NCBI GenBank assembly: GCA_017347445.1
Contig: AP021856.1
Location: forward strand, 124,001-188,000
From: Candidatus Brocadia pituitae
GTDB taxonomy: Bacteria > Planctomycetota > Brocadiia > Brocadiales > Brocadiaceae
Direction: 5' to 3'
DNA length: 64,000 bases
Position 1 is the first letter of the stretch, and each line of letters begins with the position of its first letter. Made by a program: the position numbers and the translations under genes. This document shows, one piece after another, positions 3,563 through 54,767 of the stretch. The notes under the pieces are model-generated. The model had not been told where the DNA came from. It ran no database searches and worked only from the letters and a program-made list of their open reading frames with translations.

Positions 3563-4421
3563 GATTTCCTATCTCCTTTGTCCTGCCCCAAATAAATCGG
3601 AATGCGTAGCGCGGGTGTTGTCCCCGCTGGCGGGAGCTAGGGGGTGGATTTCCACCGCCAAATGCCGGCCACACTTGTCCTCGACATAGATCGGGGAAGG
3701 GATCGGCGCTACAAGCATTGCTAAAAAGGTCAAAATATTATTTGCAAGACACCAATCCGAACGAGTCGCAAAAAACCCCTGTCTGCCCGACAGGCAGGCG
3801 AAGCACAAATTCGTAAGTCAGCTCAACGCTGACAGGATTATTACAACAAAAAAAGCCTTACTACAAAAAGATATTTGCAGTAAACACACAAAGAAAGTTG
3901 TCCTTGCAAGGGCGCTCACCCGCAGCAATCTCTCTGTGACGGTCATTCCGAACAAAGCGGGAAATCCCATGGGTTTGCTTCGCTTGGGCTCGCAATGACC
4001 AGCACATGTCAACGTATTTCATGTGTTTACCATCGTTAAAATATCTTCGGCAGTAAGGCCGTCTTTTGGAAAAACGGTTTAAGCTGTTTAAACAGCTTAA
4101 ACCGCTTAAACCGTTTGCTAAGACCTTGTTACTTTGCGTCCCCTGATCACTCAGGGTTTGCTCGTATCGGAAGTATTGAATTTTAAGTGCCTGTAGTACG
4201 CAACGATACAGGTAACACAAAGAGATGGTTACTGTCAAGCAAAAAATAACCGTACCTGCCTGGCGCGGTGCAGCTAATACCAATTCTCCTTTGTGAAAGC
4301 GGGAGATTGTCTCGGAAAAGACCTTCGCAATGACACTGGCTATGCCTCTGCTGTTCCCATAACAAATACTACGACAAATCGTATTTGCAATCGATGCTGA
4401 AGCTTATATAATAAAGACAAT
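3563..4421. other. Long repeat-rich intergenic region without a credible gene
   Basis: No reading frame here has a recognisable domain or ribosome site. The region holds degenerate repeats: 3597-3705 resembles, in inverted orientation, 4437-4565; a segment near 3990-4013 (CTCGCAATGACCAGCACATG) recurs inverted at 34338-34362; and 4075-4104 is a perfect palindrome. It appears to be a landing zone for small non-coding elements. Confidence 0.6.
4075..4104. repeat. Perfect 30-bp palindrome
   Basis: Positions 4075-4089 (CGGTTTAAGCTGTTT) are the exact reverse complement of 4090-4104, with no loop. A further half-site CTTAAACCGTTT follows directly at 4105-4116. No T-run follows. It could be a protein-binding site or a REP-type unit. 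Confidence 0.75.
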
Positions 4422-9220: not shown

Positions 9221-9970
9221 TTATTGCAAAATCCCCAGCCAATCCCTGAGTAAAAACTGAATCCGGCCGATGAGCAAGGACAACCTGCCCATGACCGTAT
9301 AGCCGAAGGATGCGCCAAAGGAGATCATGAGAAACCAGATGCCGATCTTCGACACCGTTCCGATCGTCCCTTTGTGCTCAACGGAAAAGATGAAGTAGAT
9401 GAGTACGGAGATAACACCGAGCAGGATAAGTACAGTGTTGATGCTGGAAAAGATGGTTTCCCCGCCGGAAAATACGGGATGCAGGGAGGGTTTTGTCTGT
9501 TCAAGGATGAATGCGGAAATGACGCGCGGGATGCTCACTCCTGCACCAAGTCCCACCACAAATGCAAACGTCCATCGACTCAGCCACGATAGTTTTCTCG
9601 AAAATCTCAGGAGCATAAAGATCCCAAGCATGGAAGGAATGATCAATGCATATTGAGGGGCTTTCGTTGCAGCCTTTGAAAACATTGGGACGATAAGGGG
9701 GTCATAGAGGTCGGGTTTTAAGAAATTAAACCAGGTAATGATGATGGTATACCCCAGGGATACGCCTACATAAAGATTTTCTGCGATCTTGAAGGCGGGA
9801 TTGTCCTTATACAGGAAGCTGTAAATGGCCAGGGTAAGTCCAACGCCGAGGATAACGCCAAACCCATCGAAGGAGAAAGGAAGTTTCCCCGATGCCATTA
9901 AAAAGATATTGATGCAGACGAATAATCCAATCGTGCCAACAAGAATGAAGAAATTAGAATCCTTACGCAT
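9221..9970 (-). CDS. Polytopic membrane protein, gene 4 of an unknown four-gene operon
   Basis: A 249-aa protein with about seven hydrophobic segments (near residues 7-26, 37-54, 62-81, 107-123, 133-155, 175-197 and 207-226). No motif was recognised. It follows the preceding gene by only 3 nt, so the two are co-transcribed and probably translationally coupled. Loops rich in Arg/Lys (LLRFSRKLSWLSR) suggest cytoplasmic faces. Context: the other genes encode a six-segment membrane protein, a doubly anchored globular protein, and a secreted/anchored protein with a fibronectin-like front. A membrane complex is inferred; function unknown. Confidence 0.75.
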   Translation of the reverse strand: MRKDSNFFILVGTIGLFVCINIFLMASGKLPFSFDGFGVILGVGLTLAIYSFLYKDNPAFKIAENLYVGVSLGYTIIITWFNFLKPDLYDPLIVPMFSKAATKAPQYALIIPSMLGIFMLLRFSRKLSWLSRWTFAFVVGLGAGVSIPRVISAFILEQTKPSLHPVFSGGETIFSSINTVLILLGVISVLIYFIFSVEHKGTIGTVSKIGIWFLMISFGASFGYTVMGRLSLLIGRIQFLLRDWLGILQ

Positions 9971-9973
9971 GCC

Positions 9974-10777
9974 TTACCTTTTGGATATAAAATAGATGAT
10001 GTTGCCAAAGATGACAAAAATAATAATAATCACATGCACCACGCTTTGTGGGCGCATACCGATTACGGCGCTGCCCTTTTTCCCGACCAGCGCCTCATAT
10101 TCTGCTGCCCCCTTGAGGCCGCCAAGCAAGCCGATCAGTTGTTTTGACTGGAGAAAGGGATACATATCGGGACCCATCACGGCGGTGCATCCCGCACCCA
10201 GTTCAAATCTATATTTTTCCTTCCCAAATGCTATCCAGGTCTCTATCGTTGTCCCTGCTGCAAGATCGAATAAAAAGTCGATTTCCCGTAATGAATCGAT
10301 ACCCTGCAAGACCGGTAACGTCGTGGTGTCATTCCCATAGAAATCCTTGGGGAAGGCCGAATAAAGGTTTTCCCCCATATTGATAATGAGGGATGCCGAG
10401 CCGGGTTTGTAACCTAAAAAGGCATAGTCTTCACCATGTTTTTTCTGATATTGATTGGCCACAGAGGTCATTGCCTGCTCAGCCAGTCCAGGAGCGCCCG
10501 GGTAATGGGTCATGCCAATGACTTTTAAATCCCTGCGAAAACAATGGTGGAGGAAGGCAACGGCCATGGGCTGGAGTTCTTCCTTTGAGGCGGGATCATA
10601 ATCAAAGGCAATCATGACGTGGGAACCCTTTGGCAATGACTCTATTTTTTTATAAATTCCCAGAACCGGTTCTGAGGCGGGTATGGGCAGTTCAAATCGC
10701 AGAACGAGTGAGACAATCACCGCTATGGTAATGATTGCAAAGATAATGCGGCGGTCTATCCGTAAAAGCCTTTCCAC
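9974..10777 (-). CDS. Doubly membrane-anchored protein, gene 3 of the unknown operon
   Basis: A 267-aa protein with one membrane segment at the N-terminus (residues 12-28) and one at the C-terminus (residues 247-264), leaving a soluble domain of about 215 residues between them. That domain begins SLPKGSHVMIAFDYDPASKEELQPM and has an alternating strand/helix pattern. No catalytic motif was recognised. Its start overlaps the stop of the upstream gene by one base, a sign of translational coupling. It is most likely the soluble partner of the two polytopic proteins on either side. Confidence 0.75.
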   Translation of the reverse strand: MERLLRIDRRIIFAIITIAVIVSLVLRFELPIPASEPVLGIYKKIESLPKGSHVMIAFDYDPASKEELQPMAVAFLHHCFRRDLKVIGMTHYPGAPGLAEQAMTSVANQYQKKHGEDYAFLGYKPGSASLIINMGENLYSAFPKDFYGNDTTTLPVLQGIDSLREIDFLFDLAAGTTIETWIAFGKEKYRFELGAGCTAVMGPDMYPFLQSKQLIGLLGGLKGAAEYEALVGKKGSAVIGMRPQSVVHVIIIIFVIFGNIIYFISKR

Positions 10778-51851: not shown

Positions 51852-52562
51852 TTATCCCTTCTGTAACAGACGGACGAATTTCTCTTTCCAGTCCTTATAA
51901 TCAACCACATAATTCCACCCGCAAACCTTGTTTAATTCTCTGCCTTGCAGTATCCCATCGATTTTGGCAGCACATTCCCTGGTTTCTTTCTGCGGGCCGA
52001 AGGGGTTGAAGCGCATTCCCTCTCCTGCGAGAAACAGGTAGTCGCAGATAAACAGGACATCATTGAAGAGGTAAAAGGTGAAGCCTGGGGTATGACCTCC
52101 GGAGTGAAAGGCCTCTAAACCCAGCTCAACAAAATTCTCCGTAAAGGTCACATCAAAAGTGAAGTCACGGCAGATGTTATGGACAGAGTCAAGCTTGTGT
52201 ATCAGGACCGGGGCGTTGAACAAGCTGCGGTACTGATTGCTGGCACCAAGAAAGTGGTGATGCGTAAACATGATAGAGTCTGCTGGTTTAAGGCTTGTAT
52301 CAAAGCATGATGGACTATCCACCCAGAATGCCTTCCCATTTGTCTCGATACGGTAAGCGGCATGTTCAAAGCCGAGAGGCGGGACGGAGTTTAAACGGGT
52401 AACCTTATCGTTCACGGGGGTGCACTCGACTTTGTACTTTATAGAGCATTCCTCCGAAGTAATGAATTTTTCATGTGGAGCCCCGCAGAACGGGCAAAAG
52501 TCCGGATAGTAGCCGACCATATTGAAGCCGCACACGGTACAGACATATTGTTCCTTTTGCAT
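51852..52562 (-). CDS. Metallo-beta-lactamase-fold protein with N-terminal rubredoxin-like knuckle
   Basis: A 236-aa protein. Residues 7-28 (CTVCGFNMVGYYPDFCPFCG) form a rubredoxin-like four-Cys site. The rest is an MBL fold: WVDSPSCFD, SIMFTHHHFLGASNQYR, GLEAFHSGGHTPGFTFYLF and DVLFICDYLFL. The usual motif H-x-H-x-D-H is reduced to H-x-H-x-L-G, so the Asp and third His of the metal site are missing, whereas the later GGHTPG and Asp are kept. Relatives include flavodiiron-like and other redox MBL proteins; function here is unknown. The gene has its own promoter and lies downstream of fluoride riboswitch 2. Confidence 0.75.
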   Translation of the reverse strand: MQKEQYVCTVCGFNMVGYYPDFCPFCGAPHEKFITSEECSIKYKVECTPVNDKVTRLNSVPPLGFEHAAYRIETNGKAFWVDSPSCFDTSLKPADSIMFTHHHFLGASNQYRSLFNAPVLIHKLDSVHNICRDFTFDVTFTENFVELGLEAFHSGGHTPGFTFYLFNDVLFICDYLFLAGEGMRFNPFGPQKETRECAAKIDGILQGRELNKVCGWNYVVDYKDWKEKFVRLLQKG

Positions 52563-52633: not shown

Positions 52634-52662
52634 ATACTATAATTTGAAACAAGTCATGTCAA
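52634..52662 (-). promoter_or_regulatory. Promoter of the MBL-rubredoxin gene
   Basis: On the minus strand: TTGACA (52662-52657), 17-nt spacer, TAGTAT (52639-52634). It lies between riboswitch 2 and the gene, so the gene can be transcribed independently of the riboswitch terminator. Confidence 0.55.
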
Positions 52663-52696: not shown

Positions 52697-52776
52697 ACAA
52701 AAATACTCCTATTGAGGCATTTGACATCAACAGGAGTTATCAGCTACAAGGTAGCAGTTAAGCGAACTCCATCGCT
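52697..52776 (-). promoter_or_regulatory. Fluoride (crcB-type) riboswitch 2 with terminator
   Basis: Reading the minus strand from 52776: AGCGATGGAGTTCGCT (hairpin AGCG/CGCT), then a GCTAC/GTAGC hairpin, then CTGATAACTCCT. The loop GGAGTT can pair with AACTCC, the pseudoknot of the fluoride aptamer. AACTCCT is also the 5' arm of a following stem (ACTCCTGTTGA / TCAATAGGAGT) ended by ATTTTT, a ligand-controlled terminator. Compared with copy 1, the P2 pair G-C is changed to A-T and the P3 stem is changed on both sides, which is compensatory change. No crcB/fluc or EriC gene is near. The next gene downstream, 135 nt away, is the MBL-rubredoxin gene. Confidence 0.85.
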
Positions 52777-52842
52777 TTCATAAAGACAGAACATGAGGCT
52801 TATTTGTGCATATCTCAGCCCGAATTCAACCTGTTCTGTTAC

Positions 52843-54235
52843 TTACATCATAGTCATCTTTATTCGTTCTGTTTTTGCGTCCCTCAGGTTTATGGTATTC
52901 CATACCTTCTCCAGATTTTCTTTGTGCTCTTCCAGGGTTTTAGTCCTGTTCGCTAATACCTCTAGCGCAAGCCGTACCGACTCGCTACCAGCCCTTCGCC
53001 TCTCTTGTCCCTTTTGTATGGCTTGTTCTATTTTGGCAACAAGATCGCTCCCGAGATCCTTCATCTGTTTCGAATAATGGTCGATGGTTTTCCTGATCCT
53101 TGCTGTGAGTTCAGAACGTGTCCTGCCACAGTTCCGGCTAACATCAGAGGACACCCATTCCATCATCTCGTTCAGGATCATTTTTCTGCTCAGGGATTTC
53201 GGCAGGAAGGTGCGCAGGATGGACTTGACCTCTTTTTCCGTTGGGATGGTATATTCCTGGACCATGTAATAGAAACCGGTATCCCTGGCCAGTTCAACGG
53301 AAAATTCGTATTGTTCCATGCATACCTCAAAGAGGATTTCGGCGGCCGTTTTAAACTCGTTGATGATGTTGTTAGAACGTCTTGTAAAACGATTACAGGT
53401 TTCCTGGATATTCGTTGAGATTACCTGCTCGGTATCCTCCCTAAACAGATCGAATCCTTTAACAATTTCATCCTTGAACGTCATTATTCGCTGTTTTTGC
53501 CTTTAATGCTTCCCTGGCAGAGATAGGCCAGATTTTCTGAACGGTAAATTCCATCTCCTCCAATACCTGTCTATTGAAGGCAGCTATTTCTTCAATCTCT
53601 TTTGGCGTTAGATTATCGATCTTATTCAAAACAAAGAATATCTTCTGGGTAGAGCCTTTGATGGTATCAAGGAGTTCTTTTTCTACTTGTGAGATAGGAA
53701 CATCGGCGCTCATGAGGAACAATGCCGCATCCAGATGGTCCAAAAATTCATAGGTCGTTTCTGTGTTGTGCAGGAAGGTGGATCCCACTCCGGGTGTATC
53801 TACCAACAGTATCCCTTTTTCGAGGAAAGGGGATGGATACCCGATGCGTGCGCATCGTACGCCCTTTATATTTTTTGGATTTCACTTCTCCGTTACATAG
53901 TCGGAAAGTTCCTCTATGCGAATTTTCTTCTCGTTGCCACCCTCTATAGAGACCGAACAGCTAACCTCTTCGCCATACTTCAGGATTGTCACAACAGAAG
54001 TCGGTGGTACAACGGAAGAGGGGAGGATTTTCTTGCCGATCAGGCTATTAATAAGCGTCGCCTTGCCCCTTTTAAATTGTCCCAAAATCACCAGATTAAA
54101 ACAATTTGCTATCAACTGTTCCTTGACCATGAGCAACCTGTTGTCCACGGCACCCATGTCATCCTTTATCAGTAACTCGATATTTTCAATGGTGCCTAGC
54201 ATTTCTGTTTTATGCCTTATAAATTCTTCCAACAT
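52843..54235 (-). pseudogene. Dynamin-like GTPase gene, broken by an in-frame TGA and a frameshift
   Basis: Three pieces together encode a bacterial dynamin-like protein. Piece 1 (54235-53882) starts behind GAGGAGG and has the G1 loop region LGQFKRGKATLINSLIG, with Ala in place of the Ser/Thr that binds magnesium. It stops at TGA (53882-53884); reading on in the same frame gives NPKNIKGVRCARIGYPSPFL and then LLVDTPGVGSTF (G3) and LNKID (G4) to 53468. Piece 3 (53484-52843) is in another frame and is mostly helical stalk (LEEHKENLEKVWNTI). The total of about 460 codons is short, so a deletion at the frameshift is likely. Dynamin-like proteins remodel membranes. Loss of function is inferred, but sequencing error at the TGA cannot be excluded. 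Confidence 0.8.
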
Positions 54236-54345
54236 GAAAAACACCTCCTCAAAAACAAAAGCATTGGGTGCAATAACCTTCGAATCTGAAAAATTTATTG
54301 TCTACCGCTTGCCTTTCTCCCTTCACGACCCCTACCCTTTTCTGC

Positions 54346-54546
54346 TTAAACCATCCAATTACACGCCGCAAAATAGCTACGGATATCGAGCGTAAAATCA
54401 CCGTTACGCAAAACGATATGACCATTGTTTAATTTATTATTTGAAATCCAGTACATTAAAAATGCATCACATAAATCTGACTCTGTATATTCAACATCCA
54501 ACAAGCCTGAGTTCTGGAGATCCCTAATACCAATAATCTTTTCCAT
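54346..54546 (-). CDS. 66-aa unknown protein directly under fluoride riboswitch 1
   Basis: A 66-aa protein starting MEKIIGIRDLQNSGL behind a strong AGGAGGG site, 48 nt after the second terminator of the riboswitch leader. Composition is ordinary for a soluble protein (acidic middle YTESDLCDAF, aromatic end DIRSYFAACNW). I do not recognise it. The dynamin-like gene starts 110 nt downstream on the same strand, so the two are probably one transcript. Because it is the first gene after a fluoride aptamer it is a candidate fluoride-response factor. Confidence 0.6.
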   Translation of the reverse strand: MEKIIGIRDLQNSGLLDVEYTESDLCDAFLMYWISNNKLNNGHIVLRNGDFTLDIRSYFAACNWMV

Positions 54547-54593
54547 AAATCCCTCCTATGAATTTAGGACAGGAATTTATTTGTAGCATAACA

Positions 54594-54632
54594 AAAAACC
54601 CCTGTCGAGACCGTGGCTTCGACAGGGGTTCT
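54594..54632 (-). terminator. Second terminator behind the fluoride riboswitch
   Basis: On the minus strand: AACCCCTGTCGA, 9-10-nt loop, TCGACAGGGGTT, TTTTTT. The 5' arm AACCCC is similar to, but does not fully match, the AACTCC arm that the aptamer loop can pair with, so this hairpin should not be controlled by the same pseudoknot. Confidence 0.75.
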
Positions 54633-54641
54633 TGTAAAGAA

Positions 54642-54718
54642 AAAAACTCCTATCGAAGCAAACCTTCAACAGGAGTTATCAGCTATATTATAGCAATTTA
54701 GGCGAACTCCATCGCCTG
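54642..54718 (-). promoter_or_regulatory. Fluoride (crcB-type) riboswitch 1 with terminator
   Basis: On the minus strand from 54718: GGCGATGGAGTTCGCC, TAAATT, hairpin GCTATA/TATAGC, then CTGATAACTCCT. This is very close to the Bacillus cereus crcB aptamer as I remember it. The loop GGAGTT can form the pseudoknot with AACTCC. In the alternative fold AACTCCTGTTGAAG pairs with CTTCGATAGGAGTT over 14 pairs (two wobbles), followed by seven T: a terminator that fluoride binding would prevent. A promoter TTGACA...TTTATT lies just upstream. Controlled genes: the 66-aa ORF and the dynamin-like pseudogene. Confidence 0.9.
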
Positions 54719-54738
54719 AAATTTAATTATGCATGAAA

Positions 54739-54767
54739 TAAACTACGTGTGCAACTGGTTGTCAAGC
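54739..54767 (-). promoter_or_regulatory. Promoter of the fluoride riboswitch 1 transcript
   Basis: TTGACA (54767-54762 on the minus strand), 17-nt spacer, TTTATT (54744-54739). Transcription would start about 10-15 nt before the aptamer. Confidence 0.55.

Follow-up and report, generated by a model that had tools for sequence, protein, structure and literature searches.

Two predicted fluoride riboswitches, a 66-aa gene and a broken dynamin-like GTPase gene lie together on the minus strand of the window, which is the 64,000-nt stretch of DNA that was analysed. A scan of the window with the Rfam model RF01734 (gathering score 34 bits) gave exactly two matches, both on the minus strand and both above the gathering score, at the places where an initial annotation had located two fluoride riboswitches. 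No RF01734 match beyond these two is present elsewhere in the 4.08-Mb, one-contig genome, that of a Brocadia-type anammox bacterium. The features are listed below in the direction of transcription.

54737–54765, minus strand: promoter-like site of copy 1, TTGACA, 17 nt, TTTATT (from the sequence, consensus match only)
54663–54725, minus strand: fluoride riboswitch aptamer, copy 1 (RF01734, 50.4 bits, E 5.4e-11; covariation over 46 copies)
54645–54677, minus strand: terminator T1, whose 5′ arm is the AACUCC pseudoknot strand of the aptamer (14 pairs and a T tract)
54597–54630, minus strand: terminator T2 behind copy 1 (from the sequence; conserved in 34 Brocadiaceae leaders)
54346–54546, minus strand: 66-aa gene, an intact open frame with the Shine-Dalgarno sequence AGGAGG (no Pfam match)
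52843–54232, minus strand: dynamin-like GTPase pseudogene, with Dynamin_N in both N-terminal pieces (lesions by alignment with the intact gene of genome G004)
53882–53884, minus strand: in-frame TGA in the switch I region of the pseudogene, a Gly codon in relatives (same alignment)
52724–52785, minus strand: fluoride riboswitch aptamer, copy 2 (RF01734, 43.3 bits, E 1.1e-8)
about 52703–52739, minus strand: terminator-like hairpin of copy 2, which reuses AACUCC and is weaker than T1
52634–52662, minus strand: promoter-like site after copy 2, TTGACA, 17 nt, TAGTAT (10 of 12 positions, consensus match only)
51852–52562, minus strand: gene for an MBL-fold protein whose N-terminal domain is rubredoxin-like; as a riboswitch target it is not conserved

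Both stems and the pseudoknot of the aptamer are 98% paired across 46 Brocadiales copies. Both-sided changes are found at seven pairs, compared with 2.4 in shuffles, and two copies carry a double compensatory change of the entire pseudoknot core, from GGAGUU/AACUCC to GAGGUU/AACCUC. The pairing of a GGAGTT loop with a downstream AACTCC and the compensatory stem changes, both noted in the initial annotation, are thus supported by covariation that includes the pseudoknot itself. Judged by model score and covariation, the two window RNAs are genuine fluoride riboswitches; fluoride binding itself is predicted. The crcB RNAs have an aptamer, a pseudoknot and a terminator arm that overlaps the aptamer (Weinberg 2010; PMC2864571), and the window leaders likewise have all three. 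They differ from crcB RNAs in the gene that appears to be controlled, which is a dynamin gene and not an exporter gene, and the Brocadiaceae leaders add a second, cross-complementary terminator.

The terminator of copy 1 reuses the AACTCC arm (54677–54645), as had been proposed, and copy 2 has its weaker counterpart. The second terminator, T2, is situated within roughly 10–20 nt after T1 in 34 Brocadiaceae leaders; none is found after the copy 2 hairpin. In copy 1 the T2 5′ arm can pair with the T1 3′ arm at 13 of 14 positions (−16.6 kcal/mol). The 34 leaders give a mean of 12.5 of 14 pairs and −15.6 kcal/mol, against −14.7 for permuted arms (p 1e-4, by a permutation that ignores relatedness and with T1 and T2 resembling duplicates) and −4.8 for shuffled ones. 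Because T1 and T2 look like duplicates, part of the cross-complementarity comes free. The two arms have, in addition, changed together in the Kuenenia lineage. In the relative G010 the dynamin ATG is only about 20 nt past the T2 tract, and expression of the gene therefore requires that T2 be passed and does not always stop transcription. The tandem terminators with cross-complementary arms suggest a two-step antitermination relay. Among the matches listed in a search of the open-access literature, no paper was found that has both a riboswitch and the phrase 'tandem terminators'. A promoter-like site, TTGACA-17-TATATT, is likewise found upstream of the riboswitch in G004 and G010.

The transcript of copy 1 had been described as leading to a module of a 66-aa open reading frame and a dynamin-like GTPase. 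Both genes do lie behind copy 1, but a working module in this genome is not supported, as the dynamin gene is broken. Genome G004, of the same genus, has an intact gene of about 600 codons, which served as the reference for alignment of the lesions. In addition to the in-frame TGA, the P-loop has GKA in place of GKT, where T or S is found in 58 of 58 relatives, and a deletion of about 400 nt with a frameshift is present near 53470. With a stop codon, an altered P-loop and a frameshifting deletion, neither the reading frame nor the P-loop is intact. The N-terminal part nevertheless displays a dN/dS of 0.07–0.11, which is not raised and resembles comparisons between intact copies; decay is thus recent. 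An assembly fault is an unlikely source of the lesions, since these comprise a substitution as well as the ~400-nt deletion and the genome is in one contig. The 66-aa gene, by its dN/dS of 0.11–0.14 relative to the nearest orthologues and its good ribosome-binding site, is a real gene under purifying selection; a Pfam search of the protein gave no match.

The promoter-like site after copy 2, several of the dynamin lesions and the T2 terminator behind copy 1 were absent from the initial annotation. The first of these bears on the suggestion, made there, that copy 2 directs the MBL-rubredoxin gene. In favour of a fluoride switch for this gene, it is the next one on the same strand, 162 nt downstream of copy 2. 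However, the TTGACA-17-TAGTAT site is between the copy 2 terminator and the MBL gene and could serve this gene without the riboswitch, and no MBL-rubredoxin homologue is found in any of 28 regions taken from relatives. These two observations make regulation of the MBL gene by copy 2 doubtful. A conserved link is lacking, and we regard a fluoride switch for this gene as quite improbable.

Relatives of the window genome, the nearest of which include Candidatus Brocadia sapporoensis, show what usually follows these riboswitches. The riboswitch and a close dynamin are both present in the same 23 of 33 Brocadiaceae genomes and both absent from the other 10 (23/23 versus 0/10; Fisher p 1.1e-8, relatedness not taken into account). 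The gene after the riboswitch is usually an intact dynamin gene of about 600 aa, or the 66-aa gene followed by the dynamin gene, as the initial annotation would lead one to look for in other Brocadiales. Nearly every relative also has a paralogous dynamin of about 584 aa; no riboswitch is found beside it among the matches listed. CrcB (PF02537) is absent from the window genome and from 33 of 33 Brocadiaceae genomes, and the only full-length CLC protein of the window genome is nearer to ClcA (E 1.6e-37) than to CLC-F (E 4.3e-9). As a product of fluoride riboswitch operons the dynamin resembles the exporters CrcB/Fluc and CLC-F, whereas the Brocadiaceae are without CrcB and the full-length CLC of the window genome is not CLC-F-like.

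A second riboswitch is often found downstream of the dynamin gene in Brocadiaceae. It leads either to a dynamin-stalk paralogue or to PII, zinc-ribbon and FocA/NirC-type genes. The stalk paralogue, seen in several Brocadiaceae, is GTPase-less, about 275–315 aa in length and corresponds to dynamin residues ~296–595. It is located as follows.

L047:9358-10188, L045:6572-7405, L040:5336-6283, L056:5286-6113 and L057:9080-9907: GTPase-less stalk paralogue

The PII-like, zinc-ribbon and tandem FocA/NirC-type transporter genes are found after the second riboswitch at L052:9738-12947 and in similar regions.

The operon that usually follows copy 2 in relatives is gone from the window genome. This, together with the broken dynamin gene, raises the question of whether the riboswitches are mere leftovers here, controlling nothing functional except perhaps the 66-aa gene. 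The FNT-type homologues of the lost operon are elsewhere in the genome and are 64% identical or less, and five of 10 same-genus genomes are without both the riboswitch and the close dynamin. Opposed to this are the two aptamers, which score well above threshold, the intact T1, T2 and promoter-like site, and the purifying selection on the 66-aa gene. We give leftovers about an even chance for the window genome. Such a reading does not conflict with what we propose below as the main explanation of the dynamin family overall.

A scan of 84,980 GTDB species genomes was made with a dynamin alignment that held no RNA information, and 80 loci were kept. Sixty-five of these are outside Brocadiales and 63 of the 65 were scanned with Rfam. 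RF01734 is present above threshold, on the same strand and no more than 1.2 kb upstream of the dynamin gene, in 41 of the 63; in three more (L140, L155, L162) it precedes an antiporter gene that shares an operon with the dynamin gene. The remaining 19 loci show no riboswitch at threshold, and some are at contig edges. Riboswitch-dynamin loci span about ten phyla, including Bacillota, Nitrospirota, Thermodesulfobacteriota, Myxococcota (NCBI naming), Actinomycetota, Bacteroidota, Atribacterota, Armatimonadota, KSB1 and others. As Brocadiaceae and bacteria of many other phyla have kept the link, the dynamin is no chance neighbour of the riboswitch. Not every member of the family is under fluoride control, given the 19 loci without a riboswitch and several Scalindua dynamins: the Scalindua-type proteins at L102, L103, L104 and L105 (63–65% identical) have no riboswitch at threshold. 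L104 is filed under Alphaproteobacteria and is probably misbinned. If the Scalindua strains are marine, one may speculate that constitutive expression of the dynamin could suffice under the steady fluoride level of seawater.

Outside Brocadiales the dynamin genes neighbour those of CPA2 Na+/H+ antiporters (16 loci), universal stress proteins (UspA, 16), enolase (six) and H+-pyrophosphatase (four), as well as HAD and MFS proteins. Among the associates of fluoride riboswitches, a review lists antiporters, enolase, pyrophosphatase and HAD proteins (PMC11139923). The earlier statement that the window riboswitches control no known fluoride gene therefore holds only locally; elsewhere the same dynamin adjoins antiporter, UspA, enolase and pyrophosphatase genes. 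These neighbourhoods can be read from the sequences themselves, as can the riboswitches, the conservation of their place ahead of the dynamin gene, and the lesions of the window copy. Outside Brocadiales, 10 of 45 genomes with the dynamin encode CrcB as well, so that the dynamin is not simply a CrcB substitute. Sixteen riboswitch loci from Planctomycetota outside Brocadiales have no dynamin gene downstream; nine of 10 genes examined behind them encode CrcB or Na+/H+ antiporters. The dynamin might also merely travel with fluoride clusters and serve another role, such as phage defence or vesicle release, and a part in phage resistance is reported for a bacterial dynamin, DynA (PMC8844932). Yet the riboswitch is directly before the dynamin gene itself in the 41 distant loci, where the neighbours differ, and hitchhiking of this kind is hardly to be expected.

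At the protein level, the G1–G4 GTPase motifs (G-x-x-x-R-GK[TS], D-T-P-G and N-K-x-D) are invariant in 58 sequences of intact relatives. An AlphaFold model of one relative (pLDDT 84) shows a GTPase domain together with a long, helical two-bundle stalk. Foldseek gives Nostoc BDLP (top match, E 2.8e-23) and mycobacterial IniA as best matches. VIA-align scores of Z 21–31 are obtained with BDLP, IniA and mitofusins, the best being those with mitofusins and IniA, and the best sequence-profile match is BDLP (8.7e-38). Thus the protein shares a Dynamin_N GTPase and a long helical stalk with Nostoc BDLP (2j68/2j69), the Campylobacter DLP pair (5owv) and IniA (6j72), which are its best matches in sequence and fold. 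Unlike these, it is about 600 aa in length, riboswitch-led and without a predicted membrane-spanning helix (maximum 19-residue hydropathy 1.3), and it has an F-Y-Y motif conserved in the low-confidence tip region of the model. The F-Y-Y motif is a candidate membrane-contact site. DynA and IniA are not known to be under riboswitch control. DynA of B. subtilis and IniA of mycobacteria are stress-linked, membrane-remodelling dynamins tied to antibiotics or phage (PMC8844932; PMC6715688). The dynamin described here resembles them in this respect and differs in its linkage to fluoride.

Our main reading, to which we assign a probability of about 0.6, is that the window locus represents, in decayed form, the Brocadia version of a fluoride-ON dynamin operon that is conserved and in relatives has a terminator relay and a membrane-protecting function. 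Fluoride control in vivo, the T1–T2 relay and the membrane-protecting role are what we infer for these relatives. In the absence of fluoride the AACUCC strand would build T1, T2 would then form and transcription would stop. With fluoride bound, the aptamer pseudoknot would keep AACUCC; the freed T1 3′ arm could capture the emerging T2 5′ arm, and the polymerase would read past both terminators. Read-through would yield the 66-aa product and the ~600-aa dynamin-like protein. This protein, peripheral and with the fold of BDLP, IniA and mitofusins, may remodel or seal membranes that passively take up HF, so that acid and fluoride leakage is reduced. In the window genome the dynamin gene has recently been pseudogenized and the copy 2 operon is gone, with the 66-aa gene left intact behind copy 1. 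The proposal in the initial annotation of a fluoride-linked membrane-remodelling module may accordingly be right for the family, where the link is kept across phyla, but is not supported for this genome.

HF diffuses through membranes into cells and lowers the proton-motive force (PMC11139923). Since HF enters by the membrane, and DynA and IniA respond to membrane or envelope stress, protection or repair of the membrane under fluoride is the favoured role, from the fold and by analogy with these two proteins. The main rival is replacement of a poisoned target. Fluoride with Al or Be mimics the γ-phosphate and jams GTPases, and the riboswitch might boost a fluoride-tolerant dynamin that replaces the housekeeping one, as proposed for enolase and pyrophosphatase. 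Both of these enzymes are encoded in the same gene clusters as the dynamin, the ~584-aa dynamin of nearly every relative could be the constitutive counterpart, and fluoride inhibits phosphoryl-transfer enzymes (reviewed in PMC11139923). The fluoride-linked and housekeeping dynamins are, however, only ~33% identical over part of their length, which is far for a spare copy, and replacement is considered rather unlikely. Wider than the main reading is the proposal that fluoride-induced dynamin is a widespread, exporter-independent membrane defence against HF entry or damage, joined in anammox bacteria with a riboswitch relay of two stages, T2 being disarmed by the released T1 arm. It is put forward tentatively, as somewhat less likely than not.

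Fluoride resistance as known consists of exporters, helped by a small number of metabolic or pH-related functions. The riboswitch-led dynamins point to a branch of this defence that has apparently gone undescribed. Neither the RNA nor the protein fold is of a new kind; what appears to be new is that the two are paired, how widely this occurs, and the tandem arrangement of the terminators. No paper joining the fluoride riboswitch or crcB with dynamin was found in the open-access literature; priority is unproven. If the reading is true, a membrane-remodelling GTPase behind fluoride sensors in about ten phyla would be an effector of a new type. For bacterial dynamins, most of which have no clear role, it would supply a defined inducer, and their function would become directly testable.

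Several minor observations can be added. A second, independent decay of the dynamin is seen in Scalinduaceae, where genome G056 has only dynamin fragments after the riboswitch (L059:6962-7273). The fluoride gene clusters of several phyla repeatedly encode DUF6062 proteins and short zinc-ribbon/HEAT proteins (L158:7969-8589 and 9646-10371; L141:9659-10375), whose genes are candidate new fluoride-response genes. The window also has a c-di-GMP-I riboswitch (RF01051, 45.4 bits) at 4046-4172 on the minus strand.
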